Positions 3,361 through 22,201 of a stretch of 64,000 bases of DNA are shown piece by piece; the stretch's first letter is position 1, and each line of letters opens with the position of its first letter. The notes beneath the pieces were generated by a model. That model worked only from the letters and a program-made list of their open reading frames with translations. It had not been told where the DNA came from and ran no database searches. Source of the stretch: Methanoregula boonei 6A8. GTDB taxonomy: Archaea > Halobacteriota > Methanomicrobia > Methanomicrobiales > Methanospirillaceae. Both the position numbers and the translations under genes were made by a program. The stretch spans positions 682,001-746,000 of the forward strand of contig NC_009712.1 in the NCBI RefSeq assembly GCF_000017625.1, given 5' to 3'.

Positions 3361-4608
3361 TTGGAAGAATTTGGCGTCAACTGCGGCAGGCAACGAAAGC
3401 CTACGACAAGGCAGTTGGTCGCCAAGACCATGCCACTAGTTAAAAAATACCTCGATGGCCGATTAAATTTAAAAATTAAGGCGAATTGCAGATATTCGCA
3501 AAATACCTACCTGAAACTCCTAGTTCACACTGCAATAAATAAAAATTATGCAGAGGGTGGCTCGGCAGATTTCAAGCATAAGTGCAATCTCGATGGCATG
3601 ATCTACGGATTCGAACCATTCATTAAAAATTGCCCTGACGGAGATACATTACTTTACCACATTAAAAAATTCAACGATGATGAGCTGTATCCGGTTTTTG
3701 ACAGTATAAATGAGGGAATAGTCCAACAAGCAATCCGGGCTGGAACAATACCTCCAATGGTCACCGTAGCAATAGATTGTACTGATGTGCCCTACTACGG
3801 AAAGAAAACCGATCCGATGGTAGTTGGGAAAAAACCGGAAAAAGGTACCAATTATTCACATAGGTATGCGAGCATTACTATCGTTGAAGGGGGGTTAAGA
3901 TATACATTAAAAACCCTTGCTGTGAGCAAACATGTCTTGATATCCGACGTAGTCAGTGCGTTACTTCTTGACGCAAGCAAGCTGGTAAAGATTAGTCACG
4001 TGTTACTTGACCGGGGATTCTATACCGTTGATGTGATTACAGTATTGAAAAAGCATGACTACAAGTTCGTTATTCCCGGAAAAATGACCCCGCCCATTGT
4101 AGATCTGATAAGGAAGCAAGATGTACCGGCGATAAAACGGCATAAAATTGGAACCCGCTCAAAATTTGTATATGCCAATCTTGTGGTTGTTAATGACACT
4201 GAAGGCAAGAAATGTGCTTTTATTACCAACATTGAGGATTTTAATGCTGCAACGGCGCTTTGCAAGACCGCGGATGAAATTTTCAAAGTCGGGTCGCCTC
4301 AGTATTCCAAAAGATGGGGTATTGAAACAACCTACAGGGTAACCAAACACGATTTCCTAGCAAAAACAACCTCGAAGAATCCTGTTGTCAGATTATTCTA
4401 CATGCTCTTGGCAGTATGTCTTTACAACCTGTGGCAGCTTGCCAACATGAGATTACCCGAATCACCTGTTCAAAAGGTTAAAAAATACGAGTTGCCTGCC
4501 AGAATTTTTGGAGCAATAGTGCTGGGTTGTCTTCGAATGTTTGATTCGGGGCCGCCGAAGTGGTTAATTGCACCATATTCTGGCTCGGGTACGACTGTAG
4601 CAGGATGA
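3361..4608 (+). CDS. IS transposase, DDE type (IS4-superfamily/ISH3-like), copy 2
   Basis: This 415-aa protein aligns with the product at 1928 through VAIDCTDVPYYGKKTDPMVV (first Asp), LLDRGFYTVDV (second Asp) and KRWGIETTYRVTK (Glu), with the same spacing, so it is an intact DDE transposase of the same family. The start is uncertain. TTG 3361 is the only usual start that keeps the N-terminal T-R-x-L-V-A segment shared with the first copy, while ATG 3430 would remove it. No Shine-Dalgarno is visible at either. It would move its own element; the right end is somewhere in 4609-4740. Confidence 0.85.
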   Translation: MEEFGVNCGRQRKPTTRQLVAKTMPLVKKYLDGRLNLKIKANCRYSQNTYLKLLVHTAINKNYAEGGSADFKHKCNLDGMIYGFEPFIKNCPDGDTLLYHIKKFNDDELYPVFDSINEGIVQQAIRAGTIPPMVTVAIDCTDVPYYGKKTDPMVVGKKPEKGTNYSHRYASITIVEGGLRYTLKTLAVSKHVLISDVVSALLLDASKLVKISHVLLDRGFYTVDVITVLKKHDYKFVIPGKMTPPIVDLIRKQDVPAIKRHKIGTRSKFVYANLVVVNDTEGKKCAFITNIEDFNAATALCKTADEIFKVGSPQYSKRWGIETTYRVTKHDFLAKTTSKNPVVRLFYMLLAVCLYNLWQLANMRLPESPVQKVKKYELPARIFGAIVLGCLRMFDSGPPKWLIAPYSGSGTTVAG

Positions 4609-18641: not shown

Positions 18642-19403
18642 TTACTGGATAGGATCCGATTCTTCGCGGATCATATCGAGCAGGTGGCGCCGGATCTGGC
18701 CGAACTCTTCTCCTGTCCGATCGCGTGGATGAGGGCCCGGGATGGGCACGATCTCCTTGATCCGGCCCGGGCGGTGGGTAAGGACCACAATCCGGTCGGC
18801 AAGGAAGACCGCTTCGTCAACGCTGTGGGTGACAAAGAGGATCGTCTTTTTTGTCTTCTCCCAGATCCGGAGCAGCTCGTGTTGCATCCGGTTACGGGTC
18901 TGGGCATCAAGCGCTCCGAACGGCTCATCCATGAGGAGGATGGAGGGCTCGATGGCAAGCGCCCGTGCCACGGCCACTCTCTGGCGCATGCCCCCGGAGA
19001 GCTCGTGCGGGTGCCGCTTCCCAAATCCCGAAAGTCCCACCAGGTCGAGGTACTTCTCAGCTGCCGTACTCCGGTCGATCTTTTTTATCCCCCGGAGTTC
19101 CATGCCGAGCGTCACGTTCTCTTCAACGGTCCGCCACGGGTAGAGGGAATATTCCTGGAAGATCATAGCCATTTTCGGGCTGGGGCGGGTGATTGCTGCC
19201 CCATCAAGCAGTATCGAGCCGGAGGAAGCGGATTCGAGGCCGGCAATAATCCGGAGCAGGGTGGTTTTGCCGCACCCTGAGGGCCCAAGAATGCAGATGA
19301 ACTCCTCGTTACCTACCGCAAGGGAGATGTCCGAGAGTGCCTCCATGGTCTGGTGGTCTTCAGAAACAAACGTCCGTGAGATGTTTTTAATCTCAAGCGT
19401 CAT
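18642..19403 (-). CDS. ABC transporter ATP-binding protein (nitrate/sulfonate/taurine class)
   Basis: The 253-aa ATPase has Walker [11 protein letters not shown]-loop [16 protein letters not shown], signature [17 protein letters not shown], Walker [13 protein letters not shown] and H-loop [13 protein letters not shown]. The [12 protein letters not shown]-loop and PFGALD Walker B are characteristic of SsuB/TauB/NrtD-type importers. It powers the permease encoded upstream (19400-20161), with which it overlaps by 4 nt, and serves the binding lipoprotein at 20193. The substrate class is only as precise as the family. Confidence 0.92.
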
Positions 19404-20161
19404 CGCTCAAGCCCCCTCCACCCGAACCAGCGTTTTTCCACCGCCCTGAACCCTTGGTCGATGACAAGGCCGATAAGGCCGATCACGATGATGCCGGCGA
19501 TAATCACGTTGATCTGGCCGAGGTTATAGGCGTACATGATCAGGTAACCAAGCCCTGATGTCGGGCCAGGCAGGATCTCTGCGGCAACCACGCACATCCA
19601 CGAGATCCCAAAACCCACACGGAGGCCGGTCCAGATTGTTGGAGCGGCGCCTGGCAGGATGACTTTTGTGAGGATCTGGCGTTCGCTTGCCCCAAGCGTA
19701 GTACATACTTCGATCCAGGTGTTCTTTACCCCACGCACCCCGTCAACCGTGTTGAGCAGGATCGGGAACACAGCCCCGATAAAGATGATAAACACGATCG
19801 AGACGATCCCGATCTTGAACCATGCAAGAGCAAGCGGCACCCAGGCGAGGGGAGGCACCGGGCGGAGGAGCTCAATAGTGGTGTCGAAAAAGTCATTGAG
19901 CACGGCAAATCTGCCCATCCCGATCCCCAGAGGAATGGCAACGGCCGCGGCAAGCGCAAACCCAAGCACTACCCTTTCGATGCTTACCAGCGCATTGTCC
20001 ACGAGGCTGCCCGTACCCAGGATATCCGAGAACGGGGAGAGCAGCACCGGGATAACTGTTTCAAGTTTGGGCAGAAAAAAAGGGTTGTTGACGATGGTAG
20101 CCGCAACCTCCCACCCGATGATGAGGAGGATCGGCAATACCAGTCCAAGGCGCCGTGTCAT
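19400..20161 (-). CDS. ABC transporter permease (SsuC/TauC-like)
   Basis: The 253-aa integral membrane protein has about six helices (first at 5-25) and the binding-protein-dependent EAA loop near residues 165-190: [45 protein letters not shown] and [14 protein letters not shown] are typical of SsuC/NrtB permeases. It forms the import channel with the ATPase encoded next to it. The start ATG is 31 nt after the binding-protein gene; the three make one transcription unit. Confidence 0.92.
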
Positions 20162-20192: not shown

Positions 20193-21458
20193 TCAAACCT
20201 TCACTTCAGTTACGGTAATACCGCTGCTCTGCAGGGCAGCGCGGATCATAACATCCTGGATGGAGCCTTTTCCGGGCGCTGCAATCACGAGCGGCTTTCC
20301 TGCATCCGAGCGCGCCTTTGCCCATGCGGCAAAGCTCTGCCAGTCCTGTGCGGGTGCGCCATTTTCCACCACAAGGCCGGTACCGAGGTTATCGATCGGG
20401 TAGGCGATGGTGATAGGGGTACCCTGGTCGATCGCGTTGATTGCCGGCGGAACTCCGACATAAGACATCTGAATTGAGTTGGTTGCCGCGAGCTGCATCA
20501 GGTTTGGCCCGGCATTTGCCGGTACCAGGTTGACGGTGGCAATTTTCTGGCCGTTTACCATGAAGTCAGCTACATCCGGCTTTGCCTTGGTGAGATCTTC
20601 GGGTTTAAGGGCAATACCATAGGTGTCATTGAAGTACTGCCAGTTCTTGACCGCAACAAAGAGTGCCGAGTGATCAACGGCATTGAGGTACCCGACCCCT
20701 ACCGTGTTCTGGATGGGTGCAGGTGTGGGCACGTTCTTTGAAGCAAGGATAGATGTTGCGCTGGTGTACGGCTGGAAGTTGTAGAGAACTGCATCCTGGT
20801 TCGTACTGTTCGCAACAAAGCCTTTGACTGTTCCGAGCTGGATAAGTGCCTGCACGAAATTTCCGGTACTGGCCTTCCAGGCATCTGACGGATTGTTCGT
20901 GAATGCGATGGTGGGCAGGGAGTTGCTGACTGCAGTTACCGATGAGACACTTACATTCCCGTAGGTGAAGTTCTGCTTGCCGGCCAGCCAGTCAGCATCG
21001 AGTGCGGCCGTTTCATTCGGGTGATCATTGATGTACTGCGTTGCTGCAAGGTTGAGCGCAGAGAAGTCATTGACAAAGTCCGGGTTCTGGGCGTAGAAGT
21101 CCTTTCTTACCACAAAGACGTTCTGCGGGTGGTTGTTCCACTCGCCTGCAGGCGGGAGGTCCTTGGAATAGACTGCAACATGGCCTATATCGCTTTCCAC
21201 ACCGGCTTCGACAACCGGCTGCCAGGCAATGTACCCGTCAACCTGACCGGTGGCAAGAAGCGAGGGCATCGGGCCGACTCCCGCGGTTTCGAGAATCCCG
21301 ACAGATCCATTGGACGATGTGGTCGTGGTACCGGTTGAGGAACCGGCAGTGGTGCTCCCTGAGGTGGTACCCGCAGACTGCGTGCAGCCGGCGGTGAACA
21401 GCACAAGGACAAGGGCAAGCGCCAGGAGTGCGATTGCAGAAATCTTTACAGCTTTCAT
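20193..21458 (-). CDS. substrate-binding lipoprotein, lobes apparently in swapped order
   Basis: The 421-aa protein has a lipobox FTAGC (Cys 25) and a Ser/Thr/Gly linker to residue 52. Two segments follow. Residues 53-240 (GVGPMPSLLATGQVDGYIAW, VFVVRKDFYAQNPDFV) look like the second half of an NMT1/SsuA-type binding protein. Residues 252-421 (VGVGYLNAVDHSALFVAV, LMQLAATNSIQMSYVGVPPA, AAPGKGSIQDVMIRAAL) look like the first half, and the protein ends where the usual order would continue into the first segment. I infer a circular permutation. It delivers solute to the permease at 19400. The TATA box suggests a leaderless start at ATG 21458. Confidence 0.85.
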   Translation of the reverse strand: MKAVKISAIALLALALVLVLFTAGCTQSAGTTSGSTTAGSSTGTTTTSSNGSVGILETAGVGPMPSLLATGQVDGYIAWQPVVEAGVESDIGHVAVYSKDLPPAGEWNNHPQNVFVVRKDFYAQNPDFVNDFSALNLAATQYINDHPNETAALDADWLAGKQNFTYGNVSVSSVTAVSNSLPTIAFTNNPSDAWKASTGNFVQALIQLGTVKGFVANSTNQDAVLYNFQPYTSATSILASKNVPTPAPIQNTVGVGYLNAVDHSALFVAVKNWQYFNDTYGIALKPEDLTKAKPDVADFMVNGQKIATVNLVPANAGPNLMQLAATNSIQMSYVGVPPAINAIDQGTPITIAYPIDNLGTGLVVENGAPAQDWQSFAAWAKARSDAGKPLVIAAPGKGSIQDVMIRAALQSSGITVTEVKV

Positions 21459-21667: not shown

Positions 21668-22201
21668 ATGGCATATGCGGACCCGGTTGACCGGCTTATG
21701 CGCGCAGCGCTCACCTCCGATGAGGCATTCGTGGCTACCTTAAACGATCTCATGGAAAACGACCTGCGCATCAGCGTCCGCGATCTCTCAGAGCACTGCG
21801 GAATCGCCCAGAGCTCGCTGTATAAGATCATCAACGGGAAACGTTCACCCAATCTATCCACTCTCCGGGAGATTGTAAAAGCCCTGCGGCAGTTCTACCA
21901 CGCAGGGGATGAGAAGTTCATCGGCCTGATCGCGGCCCGGCCGGTGCTCGAGAGCGTGGAAGAGCGGCTCGCGGATGTGGATGGCCGCCCCCTCAAGGTG
22001 CGGGAGTACCCGGTGTACACCATGGAGGATGCCATTGTGGCTGCAGTCCGGGCCGAGCGGGAAGGGGCGATTGCAATCGTCTGCGCCCCGATTGTCTCAA
22101 GCATCATCGAGCAGCTGGTCCATGTGCCGGTAACTACCATCATCCCGCGTGAATCGGTCCAGCGGGCGATTGAACTTGCGGCCCGGAAGGCGTGGATTTA
22201 A
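21668..22201 (+). CDS. HTH transcription regulator, probable controller of the ABC importer
   Basis: From ATG 21668 the protein is 177 aa. Residues 30-75 form a Xre/Cro-type helix-turn-helix (VRDLSEHCGIAQSSLYKIIN, then GKRSPNLSTLREIVKAL). Residues 110-177 form an alpha/beta domain (YTMEDAIVAAVRAEREGAIA, VPVTTIIPRESVQRAIELAA) that may sense a ligand; it resembles the regulators grouped as COG1709, which I recall but could not check. A frame 34 codons longer exists, but its extra part overlaps the inverted repeat. It is divergent from the ABC transporter operon. Confidence 0.8.
   Translation: MAYADPVDRLMRAALTSDEAFVATLNDLMENDLRISVRDLSEHCGIAQSSLYKIINGKRSPNLSTLREIVKALRQFYHAGDEKFIGLIAARPVLESVEERLADVDGRPLKVREYPVYTMEDAIVAAVRAEREGAIAIVCAPIVSSIIEQLVHVPVTTIIPRESVQRAIELAARKAWI

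Follow-up and report, generated by a model that had tools for sequence, protein, structure and literature searches.

Natural circular permutation is already known in other substrate-binding proteins (SBPs) of ABC transporters. Tp0684 (MglB-2) of Treponema pallidum is a naturally permuted, lipid-anchored ABC binding protein which has retained its function, and its authors consider anchoring among the possible reasons for the permutation (PMC4990184). The glycine-betaine-binding proteins OpuAC and ProX and the molybdate-binding proteins, which share the type II binding-protein fold, have been related to each other through circular permutation (CPSARST, PMC2395249); this relationship is ancient, with less than 24% identity, and links families of different functions. 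No earlier report of a permutation in the SsuA/NMT1-type family was found in the literature searched. Our analysis of a 64,000-nucleotide stretch of the Methanoregula boonei 6A8 genome (hereafter, the window) revealed a gene at 20193-21458, minus strand, whose product we are confident is a circular permutant of the SsuA/NMT1-like type II fold and the lipid-anchored binding component of an ABC importer. The protein resembles Tp0684 in being a lipid-anchored and naturally permuted ABC binding protein; however, Tp0684 is bacterial, has a type I (cluster B) sugar-binding fold and a different cut site, and arose by a non-homologous event, whereas profile matches and the fold search with an unpermuted control assign the window protein to the NMT1/SsuA type II proteins. 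Unlike the OpuAC/ProX case, this permutation is found among close relatives, within a single orthologous transporter slot. With the SsuA/TauA/NrtA-like SBPs (PF13379, PF09084, TIGR01728) the window protein shares the sequence family, motifs and fold elements, as well as the operon type (SBP, TauC-like permease, TauB-like ATPase), but its halves are inverted, with new termini after the GSIQD helix.

The open reading frame is intact and encodes 421 amino acids from an ATG at 21458; an in-frame GTG two codons upstream (21464) is a possible alternative start. Reading of the SBP beyond its stop codon was ruled out, as the permease gene begins at 20161, some 30 bases further on. A signal peptide with the lipobox FTAGC (Cys25; 21384-21458), similar to those of unpermuted proteins in the same slot of the same genus, is followed by a Ser/Thr-rich linker with low pLDDT (residues 26-51; 21306-21383). 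Residues 52-240 (20739-21305) correspond to the C-terminal half of ordinary relatives plus a linker helix, and contain the IDGYIAW(Q/E)P loop, the HP.. loop and the helical C-terminal part. Next comes the internal linker KNVPTPAPIQNT (residues 241-252; 20703-20738), which in the alignment connects the old C-terminus to the old N-terminus. Residues 253-421 (20196-20702) correspond to the N-terminal half of ordinary relatives, with the GVGYL strand, the VGVPPAI loop, the GTGLVV motif and the GKGSIQDVM helix; the loop and strand after this helix form the new C-terminus. An earlier note, made from the sequence of the window, had proposed the permutation from the placement of these elements. The translation puts GQVDGYIAWQP at residues 71-81 and the internal linker at 241-252, exactly where the note had them, while GKGSIQDVM is indeed near the C-terminal end but at residues 396-404, one residue away from the 397-405 given there.

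Curated profiles recognize the protein in pieces and in the wrong order. It matches PF13379 (NMT1_2) with 91.8 bits (cut-off 24.7) and PF09084 (NMT1) with 24.2 bits (cut-off 20.5), and TIGR01728 (SsuA_fam) with 62.4 bits, below the cut-off of 163.5. Positions 163-245 of the 252 in NMT1_2 fall on residues 65-154, and positions 142-232 of the 290 in SsuA_fam on residues 66-161. Searching the genome in six frames placed Pfam profile positions 163-246 at window positions 21000-21272 and positions 35-155 at 20199-20540, both on the minus strand. The second half of the profile thus lies upstream of the first on the coding strand, and so comes first in the protein.

The same was seen when rotations of the mature protein were scored against an HMM built from seven unpermuted relatives: the best continuous domain scored 65 bits in the native order and 133 bits after opening of the chain near residue 242, at the old N-terminus, the maximum among 691 reported shuffled sequences being 8.4 bits. 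Inversion of the half order is therefore confirmed far beyond chance, and the ordinary linear order is absent by profiles, six-frame search and rotation scan. HMM positions 192-342 align with residues 55-220 and positions 49-189 with the C-terminal half. The halves join at HMM positions 186-192, in the turn that leads from the helix after GSIQD into the next strand, and hence nothing is missing from the permuted protein; the linker at the new junction precedes GYL. Identity to the ordinary relative L154 is 45% over 129 aligned residues in one half and 29% over 153 in the other. The pocket motifs GYLPSDH, VGxPP, NTEGSG, GSIQD, W(E/Q)PF and HPCC are common to permuted and unpermuted members, and the cleft motifs are also found in ordinary relatives from Methanocella-like genomes. 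No homologue covering the junction was found in the PDB.

An AlphaFold2 model of the permuted protein, computed from 29 sequences, was confident (pLDDT 90.5, pTM 0.84). The control was a model of L165 (pLDDT 89.3), which is unpermuted and occupies the corresponding slot in another Methanoregula genome. The model predicts a two-lobed type II fold in which, after rotation, the order of elements is that of L165, with the exception of an inserted hairpin, the linker helix and an extra terminal strand; the ordinary lobe order does not appear in it. Strands are predicted at both ends of the permuted protein (residues 415-419 and 52-58), whereas the control has a single strand (177-180); the pair of terminal strands in the main family may be a remnant of overlapping copies. 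A Foldseek search of the PDB with the permuted model gave no match at E<=1e-3, while L165 gave 1016 matches, the best being SsuA at 1.4e-21. Similarly, the top VIA-align match of the permuted model was a partial one to OpuAC of B. subtilis (Z 9.2, 208 residues, rmsd 4.6), compared with Z 33.9 over 292 residues (rmsd 2.2) for the control. The case also explains the under-annotation of such genes: a profile or structure search built on linear order detects only half of each.

In the proposed scheme, the ordinary chain would have been opened at the surface turn that follows the GSIQD helix, and a short linker would have joined the two old termini, which lie side by side in lobe I. Closure on the ligand in the hinge cleft and docking on the permease would be expected to persist. 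The chief physical difference would concern the lipid anchor, which fold topology would place on lobe II of the permuted protein, instead of lobe I as in the SsuA/TauA/NrtA-like SBPs, and this allows one to ask whether ABC import depends on where the binding protein is anchored.

In Methanomicrobiales the gene occupies a conserved slot, where GatE, GatD, ArgH and HTH regulator genes are followed by the SBP, permease and ATPase genes and then by rpS3ae. The slot carries a permuted SBP in 14 of the sampled genomes and an ordinary one in 12, including members of one genus; permutation is usually observed only between distant families, while here both forms fill the same slot within a genus. The HTH gene is missing or was not detected in three of the 14 genomes with the permuted SBP. 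In the permease-ATPase tree the permuted groups A and B stand apart from the ordinary transporters with support of 100/100, whereas in the tree of HTH regulators carriers of the two forms are interleaved, and the AU test rejects a grouping of the permuted carriers in a single clade (p 6e-35). Since the regulator does not track the permutation, the transporter has apparently been exchanged beneath it. The simplest reading of the trees is that the SBP-permease-ATPase unit was swapped under a resident regulator; alternatively, there could have been two ancient cassettes, one of which was repeatedly lost.

The distribution of the permuted order was analyzed in a sample of 392 genomes of the phylum. 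Full-length permuted relatives were found in 48 genomes, 47 of them within the taxonomic order of the window and one outside it, and the order is fixed in all 28 aligned relatives, with strong conservation of residues. A near relative of the family from outside the order (L071:2531-3760; genome G207, family f10) lies on a contig of 6.5 kb and represents either a transfer or a mis-binned contig. A paralogous permuted group (B) is not accompanied by the HTH gene. In one genome (G006) the group B gene is present as two overlapping open reading frames (L078:2966-3694 and 3580-4224), and in two others (G017 and G020) it was matched in two pieces; these cases could be frameshifts, split genes or divergent stretches. 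A second family, comprising lipoproteins of 330-360 amino acids with approximately 25-30% identity, shares this order and cut; it was found in at least 18 genomes of family f9, probably Archaeoglobaceae. One further permuted SBP with this cut comes from family f16 (L176:5097-6170, genome G107); it has a long branch and is linked to an HTH gene. With an order swap common to many related archaea and repeated independently in another lineage, nature offers a rare experiment in the rewiring of a protein.

It is quite possible, although we lean somewhat towards a single ancient origin followed by descent or transfer, that permutation at this cut happened independently in Methanomicrobiales (groups A and B) and in the Archaeoglobaceae-like and f16 genomes (groups C and D). 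In the best trees of both the transporter and the SBP, C and D are set off from A and B, with unpermuted members between them, and the new C-terminal ends differ (EVKV and GLEIGT). However, the AU tests leave one origin unrejected (p 0.27 for the transporter and p 0.22 for the SBP), and the site is identical within a few residues.

A different cut was found in G095, from family f14 (presumably Methanocellaceae). Its SBP (L075:2365-3453, plus strand; the same gene as L155:6371-7453), known in this form from one draft genome only, is opened between the GSALVV strand and the ADLKGK helix, and rotation raises its score from 252 to 407 bits. L075 is nested together with an unpermuted sister, L079, with support of 99/100 in the tree of the transporter and 100/100 in that of the SBP. 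The internal linker of L075, SGTPKVKDTVK, resembles the post-lipobox linker of the sister, TGTPGVKDLVK, and the DNA just past the stop codon is common to both genes. This is the pattern expected if a tandem duplication later lost its outer parts, and the linker likeness strongly suggests that the internal linker is a fossil of such a process. Overall, at least two permutation events are supported, and three are possible. With both forms in one slot within a genus, and with an unpermuted sister and a linker fossil for this younger permutation, the duplication and loss route and the functional cost of permutation become directly testable.

For the window protein, the earlier note had suggested the same route, with KNVPTPAPIQNT derived from a linker that once followed a lipobox. 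Tandem duplication, with the outer parts then lost, is probably how the protein arose; for this old event it is unprovable, and the internal linker is too diverged for its descent to be proved, the strong suggestion coming from the younger linker of L075. The alternative, gene fission followed by refusion, is unlikely. A tandem-duplicate intermediate was sought and not found, and the group B gene of G006, with its two reading frames, suggests that the halves are separable, though a frameshift is the simpler reading there. On the other hand, the linker and post-stop DNA of L075 fit duplication and loss, and the strands at both termini of the main family, compared with one in the control, fit overlapping copies. 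A protein of 819 amino acids (L069:2642-5098) considered as the intermediate proved to be a single SBP of the ordinary kind; its long C-terminal extension includes a TP-repeat and repeated domains.

It is highly improbable that the gene is a fusion of half-proteins from different binding-protein genes, the inverted order being coincidental. Each half by itself scores modestly against family models (60 and 62 bits). However, after rotation the two halves align without a break and build a single complete fold, in which no part is absent and at most a short strand may occur twice, and the main groups agree between the transporter-gene and SBP trees. Moreover, when aligned separately, as the earlier note had proposed, the halves match opposite ends of the family models, and neither is a complete domain of another family; together with the rotated model and the relatives sharing the order, this bears out the central claim of that note. 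That the gene is dead, or an artefact of sequencing or assembly, has a negligible probability. The occurrence of the L075 cut in a single draft could be cited for such a reading, but nothing concerning the window gene, for which it is already refuted, as the genome is a single contig, the order is common to independent isolates, metagenome-assembled genomes and several families, the frame is intact and the residues are strongly conserved.

The partner genes are of the SsuA-type importer kind by both profiles and gene order: an ABC permease (BPD_transp_1; 19400-20161, minus strand), with SaoP, TauC and NtrB as the nearest models, and an ABC ATPase (18642-19403, minus strand), nearest to SaoA, TauB and NrtCD. 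All matches of the two proteins to NCBIfam models are below the equivalog cut-offs. The SBP-permease-ATPase operon presumably functions in transport, and its ligand may be a small anion or a sulfonate-like compound. The conserved neighbors GatE, GatD, ArgH and rpS3ae gave no hint of the substrate, and an Rfam search for riboswitches or other RNA elements near the operon returned a single chance-level match. The divergently transcribed HTH regulator (21668-22201, plus strand) has a weakly PrpR_N-like C-terminal part and is tied to the cassette across the phylum: its gene was found in 255 of the 392 genomes, mostly adjoining this ABC cassette where checked.
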